37,544 nucleotides of DNA from a virus. The translations under genes and the position numbers were made by a program. Under the pieces are notes generated by a model. The model was not told where the DNA came from and ran no database searches. It saw only the letters and a list, made by a program, of their open reading frames with translations. Positions within the stretch are counted from its first letter, which is position 1; each line of letters starts with the position of its first letter. The DNA is taken from positions 1 through 37,544 of the IMG/VR virus record IMGVR_UViG_3300031758_000220. One strand, 5' to 3'. Shown here piece by piece: positions 6,008-18,442 of the stretch.

Positions 6008-7089
6008 GCGAGTACCGCAAAGCAATTGAGAAGCTGATCCGTGACGCCTTGGGGGACTTCCCGCAAGGCTTTAATGCGGGCGCTGTCGCGGGTGTACCGG
6101 GATGGGCTGGCGACATGGCTTATATGGCTCAGGAATACCCCCGAGCCCTTCTCACAGATACCCCATTGAGACCGCCTGTCGAGTACGCAGGGACGACTGA
6201 CGCCATTGCCAAGGCTGCGGGCTATGAGATCCCCGGAACGCTCTCAGGACAACTGGGTGCGGCTGTAGGGGGCTTGTTGAGCCCCAGTCCTACGGACTTG
6301 GCGAAGTTCGCTCCGCTCTTGGGTGCCATCCCTTTCTGGCACGGCTCCCCTCACAAGTTCGACGCCTTTGATCTGTCCAAGATGGGGACGGGTGAAGGGG
6401 CGCAGGCGTATGGCTGGGGGGCGTATGGGGCTGAAACCCCAGCGACTGCGCAAGCCTATGCGGATAACGTAAAAGATATGACGAAGGTCAACGACCTAAA
6501 CGCTGAGATGTCCCGGCTTGCAGACATTATGAACCGCGATGAAGTGCCGGGGTCTTGGCGAAAGTACCGAACGAAAGAAGGCGAGCAAGCGGCTGAGCGC
6601 TATGACGCGCTGATGGCCCAACGCGAATCAGTCAGGACAGCCCCCGGGATAATGTATCGCGGCGAATACGCTTGGCCCGATCCCGCCAAAGAAGCCGCCA
6701 CTCCTCTTACTGGCGAAGACCTGCTCCAGTGGGACAAGCCGCTGAGTGAGCAGCCGAAGTCATTGCAGGAATACCCAGCCAAAATTGACCCAGAGATGTG
6801 GTCCCCAAGTGGCGATGACTACGACGCCGCAGAAACCGGGCACATGATCTACCGGCGGCTGCATGAAATGGCGATACGTTCAGGAAAGGCTAAGCCAGCC
6901 GCAGTAAAAGAAGCAGAGGTTGCAAAAGCCTTGAACAAGGCGGGCATCCCCGGCATCCGCTATCTGGACGGACAGAGCCGGGACGGCGGATCAGGGACGT
7001 TTAACTACGTCATGTTTGACGACAAAGGCATCAAGCTGCTTGAGCGGAACGGGAAGCCCATCGGTGGTCTTCTGGACAAAAAGCGCTAA
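6004..7089 (+). CDS. ADP-ribosyltransferase-like (ART-PolyVal type) protein
   Basis: The protein has 361 aa. Residues about 110-150 contain FWHGSPHKFDAFD followed by MGTGEGAQAYGWGAYGAE. This is the signature of the ART-PolyVal domain, in which a His near the start and Tyr residues in the YGWGxY segment shape the NAD pocket. The C-terminal part (ALNKAGIPGIRYLDG, then FNYVMFDDKGIKLLE) matches the usual end of these domains. The family transfers ADP-ribose from NAD to protein targets, or is inferred to. The 110 residues before the domain are Gly/Ala/Pro rich and may be a packaging or delivery region. It is the last late gene before attP, a usual place for lysogenic-conversion or injected effector genes. 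The family is moderately sure; the target is unknown. Confidence 0.72.
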   Translation: MSEYRKAIEKLIRDALGDFPQGFNAGAVAGVPGWAGDMAYMAQEYPRALLTDTPLRPPVEYAGTTDAIAKAAGYEIPGTLSGQLGAAVGGLLSPSPTDLAKFAPLLGAIPFWHGSPHKFDAFDLSKMGTGEGAQAYGWGAYGAETPATAQAYADNVKDMTKVNDLNAEMSRLADIMNRDEVPGSWRKYRTKEGEQAAERYDALMAQRESVRTAPGIMYRGEYAWPDPAKEAATPLTGEDLLQWDKPLSEQPKSLQEYPAKIDPEMWSPSGDDYDAAETGHMIYRRLHEMAIRSGKAKPAAVKEAEVAKALNKAGIPGIRYLDGQSRDGGSGTFNYVMFDDKGIKLLERNGKPIGGLLDKKR

Positions 7090-7140: not shown

Positions 7141-7190
7141 AAAGCTGTATCGACGTACAGCCATACCAAACCGCCAACCCATTGATTAAT

Positions 7191-9027: not shown

Positions 9028-9078
9028 GTTCGATTTGCTCCGGTGTTTCACCACGTCCCGCGAACATGTAACCGACGG

Positions 9079-9285
9079 TTACACGTTGCCGGCCACCCAC
9101 TTCGCCACGCCACCCGTCAGCGCAAACTTCCCAGTCTGCAAAAAGACATAGGCCTGCCCGCTGCCGGGCACCTGCGCGTATGCCATCACGCGGCTGCCGC
9201 TGACTTCGTTCACTGTCACCAGGCATCCGCCGAACATCTCAACGTCTGGGTCGATCTGAACGATGTCGCCGGCTTGCAATTCCAT
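9079..9285 (-). CDS. Small SH3-like hypothetical protein
   Basis: This 68-aa protein starts at ATG 9285 with AGGAG upstream. The sequence (MELQAGDIVQIDPDVEMFGG, then CLVTVNEVSGSRVMAYAQVP) has the spacing of a small SH3 or KOW-like beta-barrel beginning with a GDIVxI strand. It is soluble, with no catalytic motif. It is the first gene after the exonuclease in the leftward operon, with a 42-nt gap. The specific function is unknown. Confidence 0.65.
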   Translation of the reverse strand: MELQAGDIVQIDPDVEMFGGCLVTVNEVSGSRVMAYAQVPGSGQAYVFLQTGKFALTGGVAKWVAGNV

Positions 9286-9327
9286 CTCACAGCTCCTGAG
9301 CGTATGGCTGGAGCGTCTGAAGGCAGA

Positions 9328-10224
9328 TCATGAAAGCCTCAGGTAGGTCGTGCTGGTCTTTCTGAACCGCTCAAGATTCACCCCTGACAATTGCGGAACC
9401 TTGGAGTAGTCCACCGCTCCCACGCGAGTGATCCACTGAGCCCTCAGAGAGCCCTGAGGCGTTTCAAATGTTGAGACGTGTGTCGTGGGGAGGGAGGCCC
9501 GCAAGGACTTCTCTAAGGCCTCCTCACGGGCCTGTAGGGCTGTCAGTTGAGAGCGGATGGAGATCAGCTCCTCCGCAACAGAGAGTGTCTTGGAATCGGT
9601 TACGGGAACCTCGTCGTCTCCCATCGGATGAGGGAGTTCAAGGTTGTCCACTGATGCCCTGAAAGCCTTCCATGCGGATTCGACTAGCGCCCAAGTTTCG
9701 GCAAGCTCATCCCGTGTCAGAGTGCAGACCATGCCGTAATCAGCTTCGGGGTCGTAAACCCAGAAATGAGCGGTATCGACATCGGAGCAGTACGCCTGGT
9801 GCGCGAGTTGCGCCATGTAGTGCGCCGGCACTCCTTCACCGGACGCCACATGTTTCCAAAGATCTGAATGCTGACCCTTTGCAGGAATCTTGATCTCCAG
9901 CAGAGCCTTTTTACATGGAGACACGCCATCAAGGCTCGCCGAGTATTCGCCCCTGACAAATACGGCAGGCTCAAAGTCGATTCCCAGCGAGTCGCTTGCG
10001 TTCTTCCGCGCCATCTCCTCGAACTGCGTCCCCCGATTCATTGCGGGCGTCACCTGAACGGTCTTCAGGCCGAGCTTCACCTCCGCCAGTTGCCGAGGGG
10101 TCTTCGGGAACCAAGGATTGATCCCCAAGACAGCAGCCGCCTCAGAAGCGTTGTTGAATTGACGGCGATGGTCGTGCCAGGCATCCGTGCCTTGTTCAAG
10201 CTCTACTCTGGTGATGGCGTTCAT
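9328..10224 (-). CDS. YqaJ-family viral exonuclease
   Basis: This 298-aa protein is probably a 5'-3' double-strand DNA exonuclease producing 3' tails for strand annealing. It begins with the usual QGTDAWHDHRRQFNNASEAA segment, in which GTxAWxxxR and the N-AS-A-LG pattern define the family. The metal-binding set is visible: Glu in GTQFEEMA, Asp in YSASLDGV, Glu and Lys in LLEIKIP, and Gln in HYMAQLAHQ. The length is normal, with an extra ~100-residue C-terminal region containing a short coiled coil (LISIRSQLTALQAREEALEK). Its start overlaps the annealing-protein gene by 4 nt, so the pair forms a two-gene recombination module like lambda Red. Confidence 0.88.
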   Translation of the reverse strand: MNAITRVELEQGTDAWHDHRRQFNNASEAAAVLGINPWFPKTPRQLAEVKLGLKTVQVTPAMNRGTQFEEMARKNASDSLGIDFEPAVFVRGEYSASLDGVSPCKKALLEIKIPAKGQHSDLWKHVASGEGVPAHYMAQLAHQAYCSDVDTAHFWVYDPEADYGMVCTLTRDELAETWALVESAWKAFRASVDNLELPHPMGDDEVPVTDSKTLSVAEELISIRSQLTALQAREEALEKSLRASLPTTHVSTFETPQGSLRAQWITRVGAVDYSKVPQLSGVNLERFRKTSTTYLRLS

Positions 10225-10802
10225 GCTGCCACCGCCTTGCGTTCAGCCGCAGTGATTGCTGCGCGAGCGGCCTCCAGCTTGCTAGCGGGAAGTTTTTCAA
10301 TGGCAGAGACGCCCATGAACTTGGCGAAGTCACCGGGTTTCTTTCCAAGGACCAGAAGGCGCTCAACCAATTCGCCGATGTCTTTCGAGTCAGCAAGTTC
10401 GGGAGTCTGCTGAACAGCGGCATTGCCGTCGTCGTCCTCGTCTGACGGAAGTGACAAGGCGACCGCAAGCGATCCCCTGCGGCCATAGGTGGTGGCCGAC
10501 ATCGCTCCGTGGGCGTCGCCCTTTCCAATGGGGATGACAGGCCCTGCCGTTTCAATCCACTGCCCACTGGAGTGAACGAGGCGGGTGAACACCTGAACCG
10601 TATCGGGCGTGGTCTCGCACGACTGGATGAAGGCAATGCCGTTTTTGGTCAGCGGTCCGCGAACGGCAGCGGTTACTGCAGAAAGGGATGCGTAGCTGGA
10701 CCGGTAGTGCGGGTTCTTTGAGTCAAAGACAGCTACTGTCATCTCGCTCTGTGCTTTTGACAGAGCTGCCGCAATGTCATTGATCGTGTCACTGGTTTTC
10801 AT
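10221..10802 (-). CDS. erf: ERF-family single-strand annealing protein
   Basis: This 193-aa protein starts at ATG 10802 with GGAG nearby. The core keeps the ERF signatures: FDSKNPHYRSSYASLSAV near residue 27, then a beta segment, then ATTYGRRGSLAVALSLP followed by DEDDDGNAA around residues 100-130. ERF proteins form rings that anneal complementary single strands and work with an exonuclease, which here is the next gene downstream. The C-terminal 60 residues are helical and basic and may be for ssDNA or partner binding. Likely roles are recombination, repair and circularisation after infection. Confidence 0.88.
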   Translation of the reverse strand: MKTSDTINDIAAALSKAQSEMTVAVFDSKNPHYRSSYASLSAVTAAVRGPLTKNGIAFIQSCETTPDTVQVFTRLVHSSGQWIETAGPVIPIGKGDAHGAMSATTYGRRGSLAVALSLPSDEDDDGNAAVQQTPELADSKDIGELVERLLVLGKKPGDFAKFMGVSAIEKLPASKLEAARAAITAAERKAVAA

Positions 10803-10813
10803 CGGTATCTCCG

Positions 10814-11110
10814 TTAACCCATGTCTTCTGAAAGTTCGGAAGGCGTCGTGTCAGGCGTCTCCCAGTTGTCGATGTCGTCTTCGATCTGAAACGCGATGCG
10901 CTGCTTCATGAAGAAGTCCAGCTCGATGTTGACCTTCTCTCCTCTGTCATCACCCACAACCACGGTGTGGACCGTGACTGACGCGGGGTACGAAAAGGCG
11001 TGGCGTCTTGTGTAAGTGACGATTCCTGGCCGTTCGCCAAACACGCCGCAATCCAAGAGGAGTGTGGTCATCCAGCGACCTCTCTCAATCTCGACATGAT
11101 CAAGGCGCAT
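10814..11110 (-). CDS. Hypothetical acidic early protein
   Basis: This 98-aa protein starts at ATG 11110, sharing one base with the stop of the upstream gene (TGATG). The first two-thirds alternate beta-prone segments (TTLLLDCGVFGERPGIVTYT, then SVTVHTVVVGDD). The C-terminus is acidic (IEDDIDNWETPDTTPSELSE). The acidic tail next to a recombination module could mimic DNA or bind a partner, but this is a guess. No family was recognised. Confidence 0.6.
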   Translation of the reverse strand: MRLDHVEIERGRWMTTLLLDCGVFGERPGIVTYTRRHAFSYPASVTVHTVVVGDDRGEKVNIELDFFMKQRIAFQIEDDIDNWETPDTTPSELSEDMG

Positions 11111-11298
11111 CACACACCGACCAGCAGGCGCAGCAGGCCTGCAAAAAACGCCATGACGACGGCGGTGCTGATGCCGACCGCGATGATGCCGATGGCTACG
11201 CCAGCTGCGCGCTGAAGCTGCGCGTTGTCAGCCCACGGCGCGAACTGGATGCCGGCCTCCGCTTGTGTGCGATAAAACTCTCTTTCGATGGTGCTCAT
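11110..11298 (-). CDS. Small single-pass membrane protein
   Basis: This 62-aa protein has a soluble N-terminal half (MSTIEREFYRTQAEAGIQF) and one hydrophobic segment at about residues 31-60 (AAGVAIGIIAVGISTAVVMA followed by FFAGLLRLLVGV). It has no signal-peptide cleavage motif. With the soluble part probably cytoplasmic it could be an early inner-membrane protein, for example a superinfection-exclusion factor. That role is inferred from its size and place in an early operon active in infection. It overlaps both neighbours by 1-4 nt. Confidence 0.65.
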   Translation of the reverse strand: MSTIEREFYRTQAEAGIQFAPWADNAQLQRAAGVAIGIIAVGISTAVVMAFFAGLLRLLVGV

Positions 11299-11519
11299 GC
11301 GTCCTCCCGTGCTAGGCGCAAGATGGCCTGTAGTGCTTCGTTGATGCCAATCACCGTTTGCCGAAGACCGACAAGCCGGTCCGTCAGCTGCTCAATGCGC
11401 TGCTGTTCGTCTTCCGGCAGCGGTAACCGAGTTGCTGCCACTGACGACTCCAGCCGGCTGCTGATGGCGCCGATGAACTCCAGCGCGATCTGTTCTGCTT
11501 CTGCGTCTTGAAAGTGCAT
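11295..11519 (-). CDS. Small coiled-coil early protein
   Basis: This 74-aa protein starts at ATG 11519 (MHFQDAEAEQIALEFIGAIS) with GGAGGG upstream. Longer readings run into the preceding gene. The whole chain is predicted helical, with a Leu/Ile-spaced stretch (EDEQQRIEQLTDRLVGLRQT) suggesting a coiled coil. Function is unknown. It ends 4 nt inside the membrane-protein gene, so the two may be co-translated and could interact. Confidence 0.6.
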   Translation of the reverse strand: MHFQDAEAEQIALEFIGAISSRLESSVAATRLPLPEDEQQRIEQLTDRLVGLRQTVIGINEALQAILRLAREDA

Positions 11520-11520
11520 G

Positions 11521-11850
11521 TCAGCCCTCCATCTGCGTGTAGATGTGGTCTTTGGCCTGCTCCTCGATGTGATCTGAGATCTCGTTGGCAAGGGCGAGGG
11601 CAAACCGCTCGGCGTCGGTTTTGGGATGGGCGTTCAGGATGGTTCGCGAGACGAACTCAGAAAGCGCAACGATGGTCGGCAACCTGAACGGGTAGCCCAG
11701 CTCATCGCAGGCAATGGCAAGAAGGTCTGGGTTGGCCCAGATCTCTTCAACGCGGTCTGAGATGGCAGCGGCGATGCCGTCTTCACGATAGGTGTCTGGG
11801 GGTTCGGGGTTGTACCGGTAGCCGATGGCGTTGAAGTTCATCTCTTTCAT
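11521..11850 (-). CDS. First gene of leftward early operon, hypothetical
   Basis: This 109-aa protein starts at ATG 11850 (MKEMNFNAIGYRYNPEPPDT) preceded by AGGGAG. ATG 11841 is an alternative. It lies 28 nt downstream of the left early promoter's -10 box (11878-11883), so it is the first product of the leftward operon, the position of N in lambda. It is however acidic and helical (SDRVEEIWANPDLLAIACDE, then ANEISDHIEEQAKDHIY) and has none of the Arg-rich N-terminus of N proteins. No boxB-like hairpin was noticed. I therefore call it unknown. Confidence 0.65.
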   Translation of the reverse strand: MKEMNFNAIGYRYNPEPPDTYREDGIAAAISDRVEEIWANPDLLAIACDELGYPFRLPTIVALSEFVSRTILNAHPKTDAERFALALANEISDHIEEQAKDHIYTQMEG

Positions 11851-11877
11851 GACAGGGCTCCCTGTTGGCATGGAGAG

Positions 11878-11906
11878 AAAGTAGCACCATGCTATCTCTT
11901 TGACAA
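11878..11906 (-). promoter_or_regulatory. Left early promoter PL with operator
   Basis: On the minus strand there is a -35 box TTGTCA (11901-11906), a 17-bp spacer and a -10 box TACTTT (11878-11883). The operator at 11881-11895 lies in the spacer and touches the -10 box, so bound repressor would block polymerase. The right early promoter is built identically: same spacer, same -10 box, operator in the spacer. Confidence 0.75.
11881..11895. promoter_or_regulatory. Operator copy 1
   Basis: Sequence gtagcaccatgctat fits the dyad rtAGCA-N3-TGCTAy shared by five sites in this region. It overlaps the leftward early promoter. Confidence 0.7.
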
Positions 11907-11926
11907 TAGCACTGTGCAACTATTTT
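11900..11926 (+). promoter_or_regulatory. Possible rightward promoter for the antisense gene
   Basis: A perfect -35 box TTGACA (11900-11905) is followed by TATTTT at 11921-11926 (15-bp spacer) or TTTTTT at 17 bp. It faces away from PL, with overlapping -35 regions, and operator copy 2 lies in the spacer. It would transcribe the plus-strand gene at 12000 and run on into the repressor gene from the opposite side. The -10 box is weak, so this is tentative. Confidence 0.4.
11906..11920. promoter_or_regulatory. Operator copy 2
   Basis: Sequence atagcactgtgcaac fits the same AGCA-N3-TGC dyad. It lies immediately upstream of PL (from the leftward view) and within the spacer of the possible rightward promoter. 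Confidence 0.65.
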
Positions 11927-11999
11927 TTTTGGTGCGCGATTGAGTTAGCAGAGAATCTGGCGTTAGCCTGTAGATGCGTACAGTGTTGAGGCGTTTGCC

Positions 12000-12257
12000 A
12001 TGGAAGAAAAAGAACAGCTGCTGCTCGCGGCATTCCGCGAAATGGATTCAGCCCAGCGGGCAGTGATCTACGAGGTGGTCAAGGCGCTTTACTGGCGGGA
12101 GCGCTCGAGCTTGCGGATTTCGGCGCATACAGAGAGCGTGTACTCCTGTCCGCTGTCCGAGATAGAGCGGAACGCATCAAGCAATTCCCGCTCTCGCGGG
12201 GATAGGTCTGCAGTATCCAGCCAGCCAGGGAACTTGCCCATTCCTTCTTCCAGCTGA
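12000..12257 (+). CDS. Small gene antisense to the repressor 3' end
   Basis: This 85-aa reading starts at ATG 12000 with GAGG about 8 nt upstream. The first ~36 residues (MEEKEQLLLAAFREMDSAQ, then RAVIYEVVKALYW) form a clear helical pair. They resemble the C-terminal tail of phage HTH repressors, including the one encoded opposite (RERELLDAFRSISDSGQ). From about 12089 onward the frame is antisense to the repressor gene, and the Ser/Arg-rich product there may just be a shadow. It may be a small regulator that pairs with the repressor. Transcription alone would also be antisense to the repressor mRNA. A genuine gene is likely but not certain. Confidence 0.45.
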   Translation: MEEKEQLLLAAFREMDSAQRAVIYEVVKALYWRERSSLRISAHTESVYSCPLSEIERNASSNSRSRGDRSAVSSQPGNLPIPSSS

Positions 12258-12433
12258 CGAGCGATCTCGTCGCCGATCCCTCTGGGCTTGCCGGAAGGTG
12301 TCTTCGCTCGGTTTTTGACCTGCGAAATGTACGCAGCTGCCACTCCTGTCCGGTCGGACAGTTTCTTCGCCGAGCCTGCCTCCTCAATTAAGGCAAGGAG
12401 GTTTCGGTGACGAATATCGGCGATGGCATCCAT
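12089..12433 (-). CDS. HTH prophage repressor (CI-like, no peptidase domain)
   Basis: This 114-aa protein starts at ATG 12433 (MDAIADIRHRNLLALIEE). ATG 12463 is an alternative that would overlap operator copy 3, and neither has a clear Shine-Dalgarno. Residues about 12-70 form a helix-turn-helix of the Cro/CI type (SAKKLSDRTGVAAAYISQVK) followed by the GIGDEIARQLEEGMGKFPGW segment seen in many prophage repressors. Residues 80-114 are a helical tail, probably for dimerisation. There is no LexA/CI-type S24 peptidase, so RecA-driven self-cleavage is unlikely and induction must work another way. It is divergent from the Cro-like gene across an operator cluster, the classic lysis-lysogeny switch. 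Confidence 0.85.
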   Translation of the reverse strand: MDAIADIRHRNLLALIEEAGSAKKLSDRTGVAAAYISQVKNRAKTPSGKPRGIGDEIARQLEEGMGKFPGWLDTADLSPRERELLDAFRSISDSGQEYTLSVCAEIRKLERSRQ

Positions 12434-12453
12434 GCGCCGGATTAAACCACGGG

Positions 12454-12468
12454 TTAGCCTCATGCTAC
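12454..12468. promoter_or_regulatory. Operator copy 3
   Basis: Sequence ttagcctcatgctac fits the shared dyad with one weaker half. It overlaps the 5' end of the repressor transcript region and could mediate autorepression. Confidence 0.5.
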
Positions 12469-12469
12469 A

Positions 12470-12484
12470 TAGACACTGTGCTAT
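12470..12484. promoter_or_regulatory. Operator copy 4
   Basis: Sequence tagacactgtgctat fits the dyad. It is 1 bp from copy 3 and lies where the promoter for the repressor gene is expected, so it may act in autoregulation. Confidence 0.6.
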
Positions 12485-12509
12485 CTGAGGAAGTTCCACA
12501 CATATCATC

Positions 12510-12538
12510 TTGCGTGAGATAGCACTATGCGATACTTT
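12510..12538 (+). promoter_or_regulatory. Right early promoter PR
   Basis: This site has a -35 box TTGCGT (12510-12515), a 17-bp spacer and a -10 box TACTTT (12533-12538), 30 nt before the Cro-like start. The spacer contains operator copy 5. The layout mirrors PL at 11878-11906, which supports both assignments. Confidence 0.75.
12519..12533. promoter_or_regulatory. Operator copy 5
   Basis: Sequence atagcactatgcgat is a strong match to the dyad AT-GCA-N3-TGC-AT. It occupies the spacer of PR, so repressor bound here should shut off rightward early transcription. Confidence 0.7.
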
Positions 12539-12567
12539 ACGTATCACACAAGCTGGGCGATTGTGGT

Positions 12568-12786
12568 ATGGATATAAAAACCTTTCTCAGAACAACGGCA
12601 TCCGAAGAGCGTGATCAGGTAGCACAGGAGGCTGGAACCTCGGTGGCTTATCTGCGTCAGCTTGCAGGCCGCCATCGCAACTGCAGCAAGGTTCTGGCGG
12701 AGAGGCTGGAGAGAGCCAGCAAGGGCCGCATCAACGCCCAGGCGGCGATGTTTCCCGAGCGGTTTGAATTCAAAGAGCCCGCCTAA
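12568..12786 (+). CDS. Cro-like / YdaS-type HTH regulator
   Basis: This 72-aa protein starts at ATG 12568. The N-terminal 45 residues contain a helix-turn-helix (EERDQVAQEAGTSVAYLRQL, then AGRHRNCSKVLAERLERAS) of the YdaS/Cro kind found opposite prophage repressors. The last 20 residues are probably unstructured. It is the first gene from PR, the place of cro, and probably represses the repressor promoter and tunes early transcription through the same operators. Its stop overlaps the initiator start by 1 nt. Confidence 0.8.
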   Translation: MDIKTFLRTTASEERDQVAQEAGTSVAYLRQLAGRHRNCSKVLAERLERASKGRINAQAAMFPERFEFKEPA

Positions 12787-13466
12787 TGTCTGCCTACAAC
12801 ATCAAATGGATTTGGGACCAACAGATAACCGCTGTCCAGAAGTTGGTTTTGTTTGCTGTCAACGAACACTGCAACCCAGCTCATGGGGACTGGCGGTGTT
12901 TTCCCTCTCAAAAGACCCTTTCAAAGCTGACGGGCCTGTCAGATCGGGCAATCAGGTCAAACATGGTTGAGCTGCAGAAGCTCAAGCTGATCACCGTGGC
13001 GCATCAGCACGATGGGACAGGTAGCCAGAAGGTCAACATGTACTGGCTGAACGCCCCATTTATTGGGGTCGAGCAGGGCTTTGAGAGCAGCGCAGATCAG
13101 GGCGACACCCCCCGGAAGGAGATTCCTCCCCCCCCGGAAGGAGATTCCGGGGCCCCCGGAAGGAGGTTCCTACAGAACCCCTTAATAGAACCTCTTAAGA
13201 AAAAACACTTGGGTGAACCCGAGTTTGACCAGTTCTGGCTGGCCTATCCCAGGAAGGTCAAGAAGCCGGAAGCGCTGAAGGCGTGGAAGTCGACAGCGAA
13301 GGACAGGCCACCCTTGCCTGAACTTCTGGACCACCTGTCCAACCGGGCTTGGCCTAGTGACCCGAAGTTCATACCGCACCCCTCGACCTTCCTCCGTGGA
13401 CATCAATGGGCTGATGACCTGATTACCGACTTAAAGCCAAGGGCCGCCGCCGGGGCCTGGCGATGA
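12786..13466 (+). CDS. Replication initiator (lambda O-like)
   Basis: This 226-aa protein has a winged-helix DNA-binding domain at residues about 5-90 (QKLVLFAVNEHCNPAHGDWR, then PSQKTLSKLTGLSDRAIRSN). A low-complexity Pro/Glu/Gly linker at about 105-130 is encoded by the origin iterons. The C-terminal domain (EFDQFWLAYPRKVKKPEALK, then KFIPHPSTFLRGHQWADD) is the type found in phage initiators and helicase loaders. It should bind its own gene's iterons and load the helicase encoded by the next gene, which overlaps by 4 nt. Carrying the origin inside the linker is exactly the lambda O arrangement. Confidence 0.85.
   Translation: MSAYNIKWIWDQQITAVQKLVLFAVNEHCNPAHGDWRCFPSQKTLSKLTGLSDRAIRSNMVELQKLKLITVAHQHDGTGSQKVNMYWLNAPFIGVEQGFESSADQGDTPRKEIPPPPEGDSGAPGRRFLQNPLIEPLKKKHLGEPEFDQFWLAYPRKVKKPEALKAWKSTAKDRPPLPELLDHLSNRAWPSDPKFIPHPSTFLRGHQWADDLITDLKPRAAAGAWR
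13111..13209. other. ori: Probable replication origin: three 22-bp iterons and AT-rich tract
   Basis: Three copies of cccggaaggagattcc start at 13111, 13133 and 13155. The third has one change, ggtt for gatt. Their spacing is exactly 22 bp, two helical turns, so bound initiators would lie on one face. Each copy holds a GGAA-N5-TTCC inverted repeat. Directly downstream is an AT-rich, A-run-containing stretch (about 13179-13209) suited to unwinding. The layout matches lambda ori, in which O iterons inside gene O are followed by an AT-rich region. Confidence 0.8.
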
Positions 13467-14431
13467 GAATCGACCCTGCCGCCCTGACTGCCCACATGGA
13501 GCGTCTGAGTGAAGACGAGGCCCAGTTTGTCATCGGGATGGATGACATCGCCCTTCGGTTCGCCAAGCACATTGCCCAAAGGGGCTCGATGTCCGGCCCC
13601 TCACTTCCTTGGACGAAGACCCACGACACGATCCGTTTCAATCCCGGCGCTTTGAGCATCTGGGCTGGGATCAACGGCCACGGGAAGAGCTTGGTTCTTG
13701 GACAAGCCGCGCTGTGGTGGATAGGGCAGCGCCAGACGGTCGTCATCGCCTCCCTCGAGATGAAGCCCGAGGAGACCCTCTACCGCATGGCTCGGCAGAT
13801 GCTGGGGAGGAATGTCGAGCTGGAGGAGTTTGAGACGGTCATCAACGCCCTCAGGGACTTCCTGTTCATCTACGACCAAAACGACTCGGTAGCAGCGGAC
13901 CGCATTCTGGCTCTCGTTCATTACGCCGCGACCGAGTTGAAGGCAGATCACATCCTGATCGACTCAGTGACCAAGTGCGGCCTTGGACGTGATGACTACA
14001 CCGAACAGGCCCGGTTTGTGGATCGCCTCCAGTGGGCAGCCAAGAGGCACAACGTCCACGTCCACCTCGTTGCCCACATGCGAAAGGGCAGCGACGAGCG
14101 AGGGGGAAGCCCGGGGAAGTTCGACATCCGAGGTGCGGCGGAAATGACCGACCTCGCAGACAACGTGTTAGTGGTCTACCGGAACAAGGCTAAGGAAGCC
14201 GCAGCCGAGAAGCGCCGGGCGATGGGCTTCCTGACGGACGCTGAGAAGACTTTGCTTGATGAGCCGGACAGTTTTCTCACCGTTGAGAAGAACAGGGAGC
14301 ACGGACACGAGGCGAGATTCGGCTTGTGGTTCCACCACAACGCCATGCAGTTCCTTGGAACCGACGCCCCCTTCGCATTGAAGTGGGAGCAAGCCCCGCC
14401 CCCTTGGAGACGATTGGAGGTTGTTTCGTGA
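13463..14431 (+). CDS. DnaB-type replicative helicase
   Basis: This 322-aa RecA-fold ATPase has a Walker A GINGHGKS at residues 69-76, Walker B HILIDSV at 163-169 and a segment VHVHLVAHMRKGSDERGG with the sensor and arginine-finger region. It then has IRGAAEMTDLADNVLVVYR, typical of the DnaB C-terminal domain. The N-terminal DnaB domain is absent; only ~45 residues precede the core, so it resembles the helicase half of small phage primase-helicases. It lies directly after the initiator with a 4-nt overlap. It should unwind the fork, with primase supplied by the host. Confidence 0.88.
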   Translation: MRIDPAALTAHMERLSEDEAQFVIGMDDIALRFAKHIAQRGSMSGPSLPWTKTHDTIRFNPGALSIWAGINGHGKSLVLGQAALWWIGQRQTVVIASLEMKPEETLYRMARQMLGRNVELEEFETVINALRDFLFIYDQNDSVAADRILALVHYAATELKADHILIDSVTKCGLGRDDYTEQARFVDRLQWAAKRHNVHVHLVAHMRKGSDERGGSPGKFDIRGAAEMTDLADNVLVVYRNKAKEAAAEKRRAMGFLTDAEKTLLDEPDSFLTVEKNREHGHEARFGLWFHHNAMQFLGTDAPFALKWEQAPPPWRRLEVVS

Positions 14432-14664
14432 AGCCCCGCATTACGGATGTGGATGTCCGCAAACCGAGCTTGATTACGGCAGAAGAGATTGCGAGGGATG
14501 TAGAGAAATTCCTTGCGAAGGGCGGCCAAATCGAAACGCCTGAATTCAGGCGTGATCGGCTTCAAGTCACACCAGGGCGTGAAAACGCAACTAGGAGGCG
14601 CTGGCAGATTCACTCTGCGCCTCCGGACCTGAAAGAATTTCAACGCGGAGCGACGAAAAAATGA
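14428..14664 (+). CDS. Small basic hypothetical protein
   Basis: This 78-aa protein starts at GTG 14428 within the helicase stop (GTGA). It is basic, with KPSLITAEEIARDVEKFLAK in the first half and an Arg-rich second half (RDRLQVTPGRENATRRRWQ). No domain was recognised. A DNA- or RNA-associated accessory role in replication is plausible from charge and neighbours. It overlaps the next gene by 4 nt. Confidence 0.6.
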   Translation: MKPRITDVDVRKPSLITAEEIARDVEKFLAKGGQIETPEFRRDRLQVTPGRENATRRRWQIHSAPPDLKEFQRGATKK

Positions 14665-14921
14665 ACGACAAGATTTTCGTGAACGGCATGGTCGTGAAGC
14701 GCAACGACAACGCGCCGGAATATGTGCTGGCCAACCTGTCCATCAAGCGCACCGACCTGATCGACTTCCTTCGCCAGCAGGACAGCGACTGGCTGAACGT
14801 GGCGCTGAAGCGCGCCAAAAGCGGGAAGTGTTACGCCGAGCTGGACACGTGGAAGCCGACGGAGAAGTTGGCTGACGTCGCGCGCGGGCCGGCAGCGCCT
14901 GACGACGAAATCCCGTTCTGA
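14661..14921 (+). CDS. Small protein with SSB-like acidic tail
   Basis: This 86-aa protein ends DDEIPF, the acidic hydrophobic tip by which bacterial single-strand binding proteins recruit partners. The body (KIFVNGMVVKRNDNAPEYVL, then ANLSIKRTDLIDFLRQQ) begins with beta strands but is too short for a full OB fold plus linker. It may be a minimal ssDNA-associated protein, or a mimic that competes for host SSB-binding proteins. It sits in the replication operon between the helicase and the nin-like genes. The tail is seen; the role is inferred. Confidence 0.65.
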   Translation: MNDKIFVNGMVVKRNDNAPEYVLANLSIKRTDLIDFLRQQDSDWLNVALKRAKSGKCYAELDTWKPTEKLADVARGPAAPDDEIPF

Positions 14922-14950
14922 GCACGGACAAATGGCCGCGCCAGCACGCC

Positions 14951-15160
14951 ATGGAAATCTCCAACCTGCCCACGCGGGAGATGCGTGCGGAAGCGTTGGC
15001 GCGAGTCCCCGAAGCATGGCGGGAGCTTGTCCAGGCGCACGTCGTCAACGCCTTTCGACTGCGGGCATTCCGTGAAGGCTATTTTCGTGAAGACAAACCA
15101 AGGGCTGGCTCCGGCGTCCGACGAAGCGCTCAAAGTGCTCGGGAGATATCAGTTCGGTGA
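14951..15160 (+). CDS. Small hypothetical helical protein
   Basis: This 69-aa protein starts at ATG 14951. The first 50 residues (MEISNLPTREMRAEALARVP, then EAWRELVQAHVVNAFRLR) resemble short helical proteins in the nin-like regions of prophages. The last ~30 residues overlap the next gene out of frame and look unconstrained, so the functional part may end near 15072. The Shine-Dalgarno is weak. The function is unknown and the start is uncertain. Confidence 0.5.
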   Translation: MEISNLPTREMRAEALARVPEAWRELVQAHVVNAFRLRAFREGYFREDKPRAGSGVRRSAQSAREISVR

Positions 15161-15488
15161 GGAAGTGATCGTTGAACACAAGCGAGGCAGAAGCGCAAAG
15201 CAACATCGGTATGCGTTCAAATTCTTCGCCATGACGTTTGACCTTCAAGACGAGTACGACAGTCCGGATGTGTGGCGGAAGGTGCTTGAGATCAGCGCGG
15301 GGCACTTTGATCCGGTTGTGGACAAAAACGGGCGGACACACTTGTGGCCCCGATCAATTGCATGGGATGCCCTCGATCAAGACCAGTTCAATGAACTGTT
15401 CAACCACATCCAAGACGCGTTCCTTGCGAAATATTCCAACGGCATTTCTTGTGAGCAACTGGAGGCAGTGATGGGGGCAAGGCCATGA
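15072..15488 (+). CDS. DUF1367-like protein
   Basis: This 138-aa protein uses GTG 15072 (MKAIFVKTNQGLAPASDEAL, then KVLGRYQFGEEVIVEHKRG). The opening and the segment KQHRYAFKFFAMTFDLQDEY match the DUF1367 family of phage proteins found in recombination or replication accessory regions, also near ninB. An upstream in-frame ATG at 14985 would extend it through the preceding gene and is not favoured. Molecular function is not established for the family. It ends in an ATGA overlap with the next small gene. Confidence 0.65.
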   Translation: MKAIFVKTNQGLAPASDEALKVLGRYQFGEEVIVEHKRGRSAKQHRYAFKFFAMTFDLQDEYDSPDVWRKVLEISAGHFDPVVDKNGRTHLWPRSIAWDALDQDQFNELFNHIQDAFLAKYSNGISCEQLEAVMGARP

Positions 15489-15652
15489 AACCTCCGAACA
15501 TGTGTCCGCATTGCAACGAGACGTTCGCGAGCAACCTGTCCGCCGCTGAGCACCGGATAGGAAACCCGCGCCGCTGCATGACGCCCGATGAGCTGGTGAA
15601 AACGGGAATGAGAAAAGACCGACTGGGTGTGTGGAAGAGGCTCCGTCGATGA
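15485..15652 (+). CDS. Small zinc-finger-like protein
   Basis: This 55-aa protein starts at ATG 15485 within the previous stop and ends overlapping the next start. It contains CPHC followed by His in AAEHRIG and Cys in RRCM, a C2HC set suitable for one zinc ion. The tail (MTPDELVKTGMRKDRLGVWK) has the Gly-Val-Trp ending seen in related small phage proteins. It is very likely real because of the exact ATGA couplings at both ends. A nucleic-acid-binding role is inferred from the finger. Confidence 0.7.
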   Translation: MKPPNMCPHCNETFASNLSAAEHRIGNPRRCMTPDELVKTGMRKDRLGVWKRLRR

Positions 15653-15804
15653 GTGAGGCTGGCATCAAGACGATGATCACCGACCCATCCGCGATCCCTG
15701 ATCGGATCAAGATGGTCGAGCAGGACATTCGGGCGTTGATTGAGTTGGGGACGGTTCTTGTCACTGTGGAGTTAGTGCGCCGTGCTCAAGATCACGAGTG
15801 CTGA
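15649..15804 (+). CDS. Very small hypothetical protein
   Basis: This 51-aa protein starts at ATG 15649 inside the preceding stop. It is one or two helices (AIPDRIKMVEQDIRALIELG, then TVLVTVELVRRAQDHE). It overlaps the following HNH-like gene by 23 nt. No motif is recognisable. Support comes from translational coupling and the gapless operon around it. Confidence 0.55.
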   Translation: MSEAGIKTMITDPSAIPDRIKMVEQDIRALIELGTVLVTVELVRRAQDHEC

Positions 15805-16183
15805 CAAGTATTTCAGTCTCTGCATTCGTGAGCAGGCGAAGTTTACCTGCGAGCGCTGCGGGACGTTTGCCCCTCCGGAATTGAGCAAAAGGTTGGACTG
15901 CTCGCATTTCCACGGACGAGGGAAGTGGTCCGTCAGATTTGACCCGGACAACGCAACAGCGTTGTGCATGGGATGCCACCTTTACGTCACTGCACACCCC
16001 ATCGAGCACATGGCGTTTATTCAGACAAAACTCGGCCCGTACCGGTTTCAAGCTTTGGCAGAAAAGGCTCAGGACACAACTCGAGGTCGACAAGCAAAGC
16101 GGGAAGTGAAAGAGATCGGCAAACACTATCGGCAACAACTTGAGGTTGTTCGTCAAGGACAGCCGTTGGAGGGGTTTCTGTGA
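15782..16183 (+). CDS. ninG-like: NinG-like HNH-type protein
   Basis: This 133-aa protein starts at GTG 15782. It has a zinc-binding CERCG near residue 23, then LDCSHFHGRGKWSVRFDPDN and ALCMGCHLYVTAHPIEH. That pattern, with paired Cys, CSHF-GR, an Asn after RFDP and C-CH, is the core of the NinG/Rap family and related HNH proteins. Lambda NinG (Rap) is a Holliday-junction endonuclease acting with Red recombination. Here it would complement the ERF/YqaJ pair. The C-terminal third is a charged helix. It overlaps both neighbours. Confidence 0.78.
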   Translation: MLKITSADKYFSLCIREQAKFTCERCGTFAPPELSKRLDCSHFHGRGKWSVRFDPDNATALCMGCHLYVTAHPIEHMAFIQTKLGPYRFQALAEKAQDTTRGRQAKREVKEIGKHYRQQLEVVRQGQPLEGFL

Positions 16184-16404
16184 GCACTACCGGAGTCGCT
16201 AAACGGCACTGGCCTAAATTGAAGCCGCCGCGTGAAAGCGACGCTCTCCCGCCGATCAAAACAGCGCTTCCGTTGGCAAGAGAGAAAACGGTCCGTGAGG
16301 CCTTGGCTGTTATCGAGGCCAACCTGCAATCCATGCCCTTTAACGATCCTGACAGGAAGCTCGAGCAGGCCCGTGCAGACACGCTGAGGCGCTTTTTGAG
16401 GTGA
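16180..16404 (+). CDS. Small hypothetical protein
   Basis: This 74-aa protein starts at GTG 16180 in a GTGA overlap with the NinG-like gene. It is basic at the N-terminus (RHWPKLKPPRE) and helical at the C-terminus (VREALAVIEANLQSMP, then RKLEQARADTLRRFLR). It lies between ninG-like and Q-position genes, where lambdoid phages carry small unknown nin genes. No function is assigned. Confidence 0.55.
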   Translation: MSTTGVAKRHWPKLKPPRESDALPPIKTALPLAREKTVREALAVIEANLQSMPFNDPDRKLEQARADTLRRFLR

Positions 16405-16751
16405 TCACCCACCACGAGGCACATCTCTTGGTGGAAGAGTGGGCTGCGGGCGAGCTGGCGGAAGTCCGCAGGGTCTGGTTCCCGTCTGTGTCGCCCAGTT
16501 TCGAGGACTATCAGTCGGGATACCGATCGCTGGATTCGAGCAAAAGAGATTTAAGGCTTGAGGCGACGGGGTGGATCATGACGGTCCTCCAAGCAAACAA
16601 GCCCCTGTTTTACACCACGCTTCGGCGGCATTACGTGGACAGAAAGAAAATCGGCGGACGCGCCAGGCGGGCAGCCTTGGATGCGTTCTGTCGAGCCCAT
16701 GCGGCATGGGAATTCACGACGCAACCACCGGCTGAAAAAAATCAGGCATGA
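16401..16751 (+). CDS. Putative late-gene antiterminator (Q position)
   Basis: This 116-aa protein starts at GTG 16401. It is basic and helical, with TLRRHYVDRKKIGGRARRAA near the C-terminus, reminiscent of the HTH-like end of small Q-type antiterminators and DUF1133-like proteins. The strongest support is position. It is the last gene of the rightward early operon and sits directly before a terminator and the endolysin, as Q precedes tR' and the lysis genes in lambdoid phages. The family match is weak and the assignment could be wrong. Confidence 0.5.
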   Translation: MITHHEAHLLVEEWAAGELAEVRRVWFPSVSPSFEDYQSGYRSLDSSKRDLRLEATGWIMTVLQANKPLFYTTLRRHYVDRKKIGGRARRAALDAFCRAHAAWEFTTQPPAEKNQA

Positions 16752-16755
16752 CGTG

Positions 16756-16784
16756 TTGCAATCTCACGTGGATGTGTTGACATA
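16756..16784 (+). promoter_or_regulatory. Possible late promoter
   Basis: A candidate -35 TTGCAA (16756-16761) lies 17-18 bp from GACATA/ACATAT. A second perfect -35-like TTGACA occurs at 16777-16782 but has no good -10 at the right distance. Only its place between the Q-like gene and the terminator makes it attractive. Confidence 0.3.
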
Positions 16785-16821
16785 TGCGGGACGCACTGCG
16801 TCCGAAGTTTGTACTCAAATT

Positions 16822-16848
16822 GGTCCGGTCCCCCCGGGCCTTTTTTTT
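16822..16848 (+). terminator. tR'-like intrinsic terminator before lysis genes
   Basis: A 7-bp stem GGTCCGG/CCGGGCC (one G-T wobble) with loop tcccc is followed by eight T residues. It ends 11 nt before the endolysin start codon. Rightward transcripts must read through it to express the late block. This fits control by an antiterminator encoded just upstream. Confidence 0.85.
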
Positions 16849-16859
16849 GGGCGCGCAAA

Positions 16860-17273
16860 ATGGACGTCGTGGAGCTCTTGAAAAGACACGAGGGGTTTTC
16901 CCGAACCCCCTACCGGTGCACTGCCGGAAAGGTGACCATCGGCTTTGGGCGAAACCTTGAATCTCAAGGCATCAGCGAGGCCGAGGCTGAATGGCTCTTA
17001 GAGCGTGACGTTGACCGCGCGATCGGCAGCCTGCGCACCGAGCCCTATTGGCTCGATCTGTCAGACGTCCGGCAGGCCGTGCTGATCGACATGGTGTTCA
17101 ACCTCGGCTGGGCTGGGTTTGCCAAGTTCGCAAGATTGCGCATGGCTTTAGGCCGGCAGGACTGGGACGCTGCATCAAACGAGATGCGGTCCAGCTTGTG
17201 GTTCAAGCAGGTTGGCACTCGGTCGCAGCGGCTTTGCGTGATGATGCAGACAGGGCTCTGGCCTCAGCCCTGA
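16860..17273 (+). CDS. Endolysin, T4-type lysozyme (GH24)
   Basis: This 137-aa enzyme cleaves peptidoglycan glycan strands. I chose ATG 16860; an upstream TTG start would place the terminator inside the gene. The catalytic set matches T4 lysozyme numbering: Glu11 in RHEGF, Cys20 in the place of Asp20, and Thr26, followed by GFGRNLE. Downstream are the usual VRQAVLIDMVFNLGWAGFAK and WFKQVGTRSQRL motifs. No signal peptide or SAR segment is present, so it needs a holin; the candidate lies 1.5 kb downstream. The Shine-Dalgarno is poor. It is the first late gene. Confidence 0.93.
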   Translation: MDVVELLKRHEGFSRTPYRCTAGKVTIGFGRNLESQGISEAEAEWLLERDVDRAIGSLRTEPYWLDLSDVRQAVLIDMVFNLGWAGFAKFARLRMALGRQDWDAASNEMRSSLWFKQVGTRSQRLCVMMQTGLWPQP

Positions 17274-18442
17274 TGGCCCGCGACTACGACTTCGACGCGC
17301 TTCTCAGCGTCGCCGACACGGATTCGCAGCGCAAAAAGATCCAAGCCGTGCGCCAGTTCGGTGTGTCGCAAGGTGCGCGAGAGCTGAAGATCACCCGACG
17401 GGCCATGCAGATGGTGCTGCAGCGGCTTGTCCGGCTGGCTGCCAGACGCGGGCTTTCCGTCCAGCACGACATGACACATGCCGTGCCGGCGGAGTACGAA
17501 GTTCGGGGCGTTTCCACGCTGTACAACGCGGATGGCAAAGTCAGCCAGCAGTGGGTGAAGTCCCGGTTGCGGGATGACGACGCAGCGCGGGCGATGCGGG
17601 AAGCCATCGAGGAGATGGCAGCCGAATACCGTGGAACCGCTAAGCCGGTTAAGGCGCCGGCTCGCAGCGTATCCAATCTGTTGACGGTCATCCCGCTAGG
17701 TGACCCGCACATTGGGGCCTATGCCTGGGCGGAAGAAGCCGGCGAAGACTTTGACGTCAACATCGCCCGGCAGGACTTGCTTGCTGCAGCTGGCCGACTG
17801 GTTGACGTTGCGCCGCCGACCGAGCGGGCGCTCATCGTGAATCTGGGCGACTTCTTCCACGCCGACAGCCTGAGCCAGTTGACGAAAAGCGGCCATAAAT
17901 TGGATGTGGACACCCGTTGGCCGCGAGTGCTGCGGCTTGGCTGCCACCTGATGGTGGACCTGATCACGCTGGCACTGCGCAAGCACGCCAAAGTGGAAGT
18001 GATCAACGCCATCGGCAACCATGACGACCACAGCTCGATCATGCTTTCGGCGTTTCTGGAAGCGTGGTTCCACGCTGAGCCACGGGTGCATGTCCACCCG
18101 ACGACATCGAAATTCCACTATGTCGAGTTCGGCCGCTGCCTGATCGGCGTCACCCACGGCGACACAGTGAAGCACCTGGCGCTCGGGGAGCTGATGGCAT
18201 CTGACCAGCCGGAAGCGTGGGGCAGAACGCTGCACCGCTACTGGTATACGGGACACATCCACCACACCAGCAAGACTGAGCTTCGCGGGGCGGTGGTTGA
18301 GTCGTTCCGCACGCTCGCCGCGAAAGACGCCTGGCACGCTTCGCAGGGCTACCGGTCCGGCCGCGACATGTACGCGATTGTTTTGGATGCAGAACATGGC
18401 GAAATCGAGCGGCACAGGTGCGACATCCGGCAAGTCCGCTGA
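17273..18442 (+). CDS. HTH-calcineurin-like metallophosphoesterase
   Basis: This 389-aa protein starts at ATG 17273, sharing one base with the endolysin stop. Residues about 10-60 form a homeodomain-like helix-turn-helix (KKIQAVRQFGVSQGARELKI, then TRRAMQMVLQRL). Residues about 135-370 are a metallophosphoesterase with all metal ligands visible: Asp144 and His146 (GDPHIG), Asp193 (LGDFF), Asn249-His250-Asp251 (GNHDD), His295 (THGD), and His328 and His330 (GHIHH). The substrate could be DNA ends, a cyclic nucleotide or a phosphoprotein. The fold is certain, the substrate is not. Its place within the lysis cassette is unusual. It ends 47 nt inside the next gene. Confidence 0.88.
   Translation: MARDYDFDALLSVADTDSQRKKIQAVRQFGVSQGARELKITRRAMQMVLQRLVRLAARRGLSVQHDMTHAVPAEYEVRGVSTLYNADGKVSQQWVKSRLRDDDAARAMREAIEEMAAEYRGTAKPVKAPARSVSNLLTVIPLGDPHIGAYAWAEEAGEDFDVNIARQDLLAAAGRLVDVAPPTERALIVNLGDFFHADSLSQLTKSGHKLDVDTRWPRVLRLGCHLMVDLITLALRKHAKVEVINAIGNHDDHSSIMLSAFLEAWFHAEPRVHVHPTTSKFHYVEFGRCLIGVTHGDTVKHLALGELMASDQPEAWGRTLHRYWYTGHIHHTSKTELRGAVVESFRTLAAKDAWHASQGYRSGRDMYAIVLDAEHGEIERHRCDIRQVR

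Follow-up and report, generated by a model that had tools for sequence, protein, structure and literature searches.

To our knowledge, DNA-damage sensing by prophages with short repressors that have no peptidase domain has been worked out mainly in a few enteric systems. Gifsy prophages are established to use small LexA-controlled antirepressors against repressors that are not cleaved (PMC3121763), and in lambda the OOP transcript overlaps the 3' end of cII, with a LexA site in the OOP promoter region (PMC5869508). A further arrangement, the TF-smORF modules of polylysogens, relies on small homologue-less phage proteins that inactivate the repressor (PMC10432266). Here we examine a stretch of viral DNA of 37,544 nucleotides (IMG/VR record IMGVR_UViG_3300031758_000220, positions 1 to 37,544; the window throughout), a 37.5 kb record that encodes a portal protein, large terminase, integrase, Erf, a RecE-like exonuclease and replication proteins. 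On balance, we favor reading an open reading frame (ORF) that starts at position 12000 as a LexA-controlled, antirepressor-type gene inside the immunity region, countering a repressor without self-cleavage. With the Gifsy proteins GfoA, GfhA and GftA, and with 186 Tum (PMC3121763), it would share a LexA-controlled small protein directed against a repressor that does not cleave itself; with OOP (PMC5869508), a LexA site in the promoter region and a transcript predicted to converge on a lysogeny regulator gene and cross its 3' end; and with the TF-smORF modules (PMC10432266), a small protein without homologues that probably inactivates the repressor.

A convergent frame behind a putative LexA box

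The elements on which this reading rests are the following.

12000-12257, plus strand: convergent small ORF of 85 amino acids (aa), candidate LexA-controlled antirepressor gene; ATG start, coding signal in codons 1 to ~33
11968-11983, plus strand: putative LexA (SOS) box core, CTGTAGATGCGTACAG, a perfect CTGTN8ACAG that ends 16 bp before the ATG
11988-11991, plus strand: likely ribosome-binding site GAGG, eight bases 5' of the ATG (sequence reading)
12000-12104, plus strand: predicted helical hairpin, residues 1-35 (AlphaFold2, single sequence; helices 3-14 and 17-35)
12433-12092, minus strand, stop codon 12091-12089: short phage repressor of 114 aa, helix-turn-helix plus helical tail (PHROG 12107 transcriptional repressor, E 8e-17, residues 2-74)

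A sequence-only reading of the window had proposed a plus-strand gene that faces the repressor gene from an ATG at 12000, and this part of it holds: the frame runs for 85 codons and overlaps the repressor 3' end by 169 nt. Codons 1-30 lie between the repressor stop and the operators, and the remaining codons are antisense to the repressor. The length of 85 aa is in itself unremarkable in a GC-rich genome with many spurious ORFs (113 of at least 90 aa in 37.5 kb). The codon-usage score of codons 1-30, at 0.274, exceeds that of 75% of real-gene windows, and 0.3% of open windows outside genes reach it; the remainder after codon 30 scores -0.108, and the coding signal drops to zero at about codon 33, at the end of the repressor. 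Furthermore, when the intergenic stretch was shuffled with its dinucleotides preserved, a start followed by 30 open codons of equal score arose only once in 2000 trials, and AlphaFold2, run with no alignment, gives block predicted local distance difference test (pLDDT) values of 82, 92 and 90 for hairpin residues 1-35 and of about 50-65 beyond. On the strength of the codon usage, the shuffle test and the hairpin model, codons 1 to ~33 are, or were, real coding sequence.

Upstream of this frame, 11966-11985 is the top site in the window for a LexA matrix and the only one at its own score; sites scoring as high occur about 0.006 times per 162 nt across 2.6 Mb of loci. The repressor that the frame faces has no S24 peptidase domain in Pfam, NCBIfam or PHROG scans (a structure model of the repressor was discarded for its poor quality, with a pLDDT of 48). 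Located just behind a predicted LexA binding site, the small gene probably switches off this non-self-cutting repressor; it is the position of the gene, together with its putative LexA control, that suggests an antirepressor function. In the undamaged state, host LexA would repress the small gene through the box at 11968-11983. Upon DNA damage, LexA would leave the box and the gene would be transcribed toward the repressor gene; the translated product, in which a helical hairpin of ~35 residues precedes an unstructured extension, would then bind and inactivate the repressor. Transcription that enters the repressor gene by at least 169 nt may add antisense or collision interference. The earlier suggestion of an induction route for a repressor without a self-cleavage domain is upheld in outline, supported by the putative upstream LexA box, which that reading had not noted, and by the same layout elsewhere.

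Recurrence of the layout in other phages

No homologue of the ORF peptide was found in phages, plasmids, Pfam, PHROGs, NCBIfam, the PDB or 399 genomes; tblastn against 50,697 phage records returned no match, and a two-sequence profile run over 389 genomes placed only its own source above noise. Matches in three loci (L252, L253 and L246) were rejected as antisense to other genes or frame artefacts. In the search for close relatives of the phage, IMG/VR protein queries returned only one identical contig plus distant loci without this switch, and a search of genome contigs yielded no close relatives and, later, 11 distant ones. The identical contig, IMGVR_UViG_3300008339_000940, matches window positions 9052-17433 over all 8,382 bases and represents the same phage sampled again. 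Scanning with a repressor profile supplied ~57 loci with divergent repressors; proteins related to the cro-like product of the window are divergent from repressors in L136-L142.

Among these loci with related repressors, a first pass by sequence similarity for peptide-like ORFs beside other repressors gave nothing, and the layout emerged only when LexA words just downstream of short repressors were sought. A strong LexA box and, after it, a small ORF that converges on a peptidase-less repressor gene and covers its 3' end are seen again in the Burkholderia phages KS9, Magia, Bcep176 and BgManors32, as well as in four to five other contigs (L172, L176, L309 and L308, with L173 less clean); the boxes of the clear cases score 20-27 bits.

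KS9 (L314), 1449-1785, Burkholderia phage: strong LexA box and hypothetical gene convergent with short repressor
Magia (L315), 1449-1821, Burkholderia phage: strong LexA box and hypothetical gene convergent with short repressor
Bcep176 (L316), 1428-1806, Burkholderia phage: strong LexA box and hypothetical gene convergent with short repressor

The gene pairs KS9 gp40/gp41, Magia_060/061 and Bcep176 gp21/gp20 are convergent, the first of each overlapping the short repressor by 33, 74 and 65 nt, respectively, behind LexA boxes of 20.3-22.9 bits; the records annotate these genes as hypothetical or conserved hypothetical only. The BgManors32 product (UEW68573) matches KS9 gp40, Magia_060 and Bcep176 gp21 at 35-54% identity, and the KS9-type product stays convergent to the repressor while it is conserved among Burkholderia phages. 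In BgManors32 (L047), L176 and L309, the box lies 288 nt past the repressor stop, and the convergent ORF (95-98 aa) overlaps the repressor by ~33-36 nt.

Two contigs encode proteins that differ from the KS9 type: L172, with a box of 24.2 bits and an ORF of 68 aa overlapping by 146 nt, and L308, with a box of 20.7 bits and an ORF of 78 aa overlapping by 123 nt. L173 is a looser case in which the ORF starts ~176 nt from the box. The N-terminus of the ORF in L308, a distant relative, resembles that of the window ORF at the same place (score 35, reached by 2 of 5000 shuffles); each of the two ORFs encodes its hairpin part ahead of the repressor stop and its remainder antisense to the repressor.

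Of 23 distinct short repressors, 4 are followed within 500 nt by a box of at least 14 bits, as is 1 of 33 long ones; random windows of 500 nt contain such a box in 0.5% of cases. The N-terminal part of the KS9 repressor is 68% identical to the 235-aa repressor of Bordetella phage IFTN9, a phage with no convergent gene at this place and no good box. As a separate observation, paired LexA-like boxes 35 bp apart lie just downstream of long (232 aa) repressors in L179 (1451-1501) and L180 (4794-4844).

Weighing the alternatives

Several points count against the reading as a LexA-controlled antirepressor gene. The LexA matrix derives from nine E. coli sites and may not suit the LexA of this phage's host. 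On this matrix the window box reaches 12 bits, whereas the clear recurring cases reach 20-27 and clear LexA sites, on a comparable scale, 20-30; the window box also lacks an A+T-rich spacer, and its flanks depart from the consensus. CTGTN8ACAG occurs five times in the window against 0.44 expected, three times inside genes and once more between genes at 7145-7160, so the core alone is no proof. A sigma-70 scan found no convincing promoter for the ORF, and a TACAGT -10 element inside the box would leave a leader of only ~8 nt. The only second copy of the region, being 100% identical, gives no measure of selection on the ORF. Among the other phages, the contrast between short and long repressors is weak and suggestive only (Fisher p = 0.085), 19 of the 23 short repressors have no box of at least 14 bits nearby, and most of the small convergent proteins show no sequence relationship from one phage to the next.

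An unlikely alternative is that the LexA-controlled rightward transcript acts solely as RNA or by promoter collision, as OOP does on cII, and that the frame is incidental. Such a transcript would enter the 3' end of the repressor gene, the OOP precedent combines the same overlap with a LexA site (PMC5869508), and the C-terminal half of the ORF has no coding signal; against this stand the strong coding signal, Shine-Dalgarno (SD) sequence and hairpin model of the first 30 codons, as well as the conservation of the protein in KS9, Magia and Bcep176, where the overlap is just 33-74 nt. We give similarly little credence to a relic, in which codons 1-33 would be left over from a gene truncated when the present repressor module recombined in, with no effective expression. 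That the coding signal ends at the repressor stop codon, as at a mosaic junction, and that no collection searched holds a homologue of the whole ORF would fit such an origin, but an intact start, SD sequence and upstream LexA box would be unexpected in a relic, and L308 has the same design with a similar N-terminus.

The switch region is lambda-like, with a minus-strand repressor, a plus-strand cro-like gene and a leftward operon from 11847:

12568-12786, plus strand: cro-like small DNA-binding protein, 72 aa (PHROG 10248, E 6e-10; PHROG 35 repressor, E 7e-5)
11521-11847, minus strand: first gene of leftward early operon, function unassigned (ORF list, family scans)
11881-11895, plus strand: operator-like palindrome, left site 1 (palindrome/repeat scan)
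11906-11920, plus strand: operator-like palindrome, left site 2 (palindrome/repeat scan)
12455-12467, plus strand: operator-like site, right region (repeat family D1; further partial sites in 12455-12486)
12519-12533, plus strand: operator-like palindrome, right site (palindrome/repeat scan)
11878-11906, minus strand: putative leftward early promoter (PL-like), TTGTCA-17-TACTTT, operator in spacer (sequence reading; -10 same as PR-like)
12510-12538, plus strand: putative rightward early promoter (PR-like), TTGCGT-17-TACTTT, operator in spacer (sequence reading)

The sequence-only reading had drawn a different mechanism from this region, in which the peptide copies the C-terminal hairpin of the repressor and poisons its dimerisation, while antisense RNA issues from an operator-controlled promoter at 11900. 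We consider this improbable. TTGACA is indeed present at 11900-11905, with the palindromes 11881-11895 and 11906-11920 around it; as a rightward promoter, however, it finds only TATTTT as a partner, at a spacing of 15, and no sigma-70 site passes the scan. The same DNA would serve as the leftward -35 box, and since the site suits the leftward promoter better, operator control of rightward transcription from 11900 is doubtful.

The likeness to the repressor tail, for its part, is partly confirmed. Peptide and tail are both predicted to be helical, and the first 36 residues of the ORF align locally with the tail at a BLOSUM62 score of 34, reached by 15-18 of 5000 shuffles (34-37 of 5000 when the whole repressor is the target). 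This ranks first among 211 N-termini of ATG-initiated ORFs in the window, the runner-up scoring 26. Some 0.3-0.4% of shuffles compared with the tail reach the scores obtained, 34 with 36 residues and 32 with the first 30, and residues 1-19 alone give 32 in a gapped alignment (18 of 5000); the resemblance was selected after the fact. It is weak and comes in part from one palindrome read twice: the ERS/ERS match that closes the ungapped alignment, and supplies 3 of its 10 identities, is a single piece of DNA, GAGCGCTC at 12099-12106, translated once from each strand. Moreover, the convergent ORFs of L308, L172, L173 and L047 show no likeness to the tails of their own repressors, and the window ORF, set against 26 short-repressor tails together, is equalled in 10 of 100 shuffles. 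With the palindrome supplying those identities and the other convergent ORFs unlike their own tails, the idea that the peptide pairs with the tail to block dimerisation is unsupported. More generally, a palindrome such as GAGCGCTC, giving Glu-Arg-Ser ends on both strands where frames cross, is a source of false similarity for convergent overlapping genes. An inverted duplication of the tail was also rejected: DNA identity in the inverted register is 38% against 26% expected (0.8% of centres), with the register chosen post hoc, and codon shuffles equal it in local alignment.

Chance, meaning that both the open frame and the LexA-like word arose by accident in the gap separating the repressor from the leftward promoter, is more improbable still: the GC-rich genome has many spurious ORFs and CTGTN8ACAG falls by chance inside other window genes, but the coding signal (1 in 2000), the LexA site (~0.006) and the layout in other phages speak jointly against it.

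The second intergenic CTGTN8ACAG, CTGTATCGACGTACAG at 7145-7160, lies in the gap between the integrase gene and a plus-strand gene whose end is at 7089, and has CTGTA....CGTACAG in common with the box at 11968. Within the repressor gene, CTGTCCGGTCGGACAG at 12346-12361 combines a LexA-like word with a hairpin. With the TTTCTTCG that comes after it, the hairpin resembles a plus-strand terminator and could also end rightward antisense transcription. A terminator candidate for the repressor at 12026-12012 was discarded, its folding being no better than that of shuffles, and Rfam gave no match in 11000-13000 at E <= 1.

Comparison with described systems

A LexA box with a convergent overlapping gene offers this phage, and named isolates such as KS9 and Magia, an induction route that is concrete and testable. 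It also suggests a simple way to spot overlooked antirepressors, namely to check whether an SOS box points at the 3' end of a gene for a short repressor. Tentatively, these loci may represent a recurrent, undescribed SOS-induction module, in which a LexA-controlled antirepressor gene is convergent with, and overlaps, the gene of the non-cleavable repressor that it counters; release of a single promoter would then yield the inactivating protein and at the same time hinder the making of new repressor. In the window the protein is perhaps also built on the plan of the hairpin in the repressor's dimerisation tail. If the antisense arm acts too, one event would remove the repressor protein and limit its resynthesis. 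The literature searched, which was partial in coverage, held no description of a LexA box combined with a convergent, repressor-overlapping antirepressor gene.

KS9 gp40-gp41, Magia_060/061, Bcep176 gp21/gp20 and BgManors32 UEW68573 are alike in having a LexA box and then a small convergent gene that runs over a short repressor gene at its 3' end. The KS9-type protein (~97 aa) is unrelated in sequence to the window ORF, and the KS9-type boxes are much stronger. In the TF-smORF modules, activation comes from a transcription factor encoded divergently and does not depend on SOS, and such modules were looked for only next to autoproteolytic repressors (PMC10432266); unlike them, the window ORF has the leftward early operon as its upstream neighbor, where no regulator was recognised.

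The lambda OOP transcript targets cII, with no protein coding described there (PMC5869508), whereas here the target would be the repressor and an SD-led ORF carries a coding signal. The Gifsy antirepressor gene lies outside the immunity region (PMC3121763), whereas the window ORF lies inside it, between the repressor and the leftward operator-promoter, convergent with the repressor gene and overlapping it; its sequence has no match in phage, plasmid or family libraries, a direct comparison with GfoA/GftA not having been made. By analogy, the locus appears to join a LexA-controlled protein of the Gifsy type to the convergent LexA plan of OOP.
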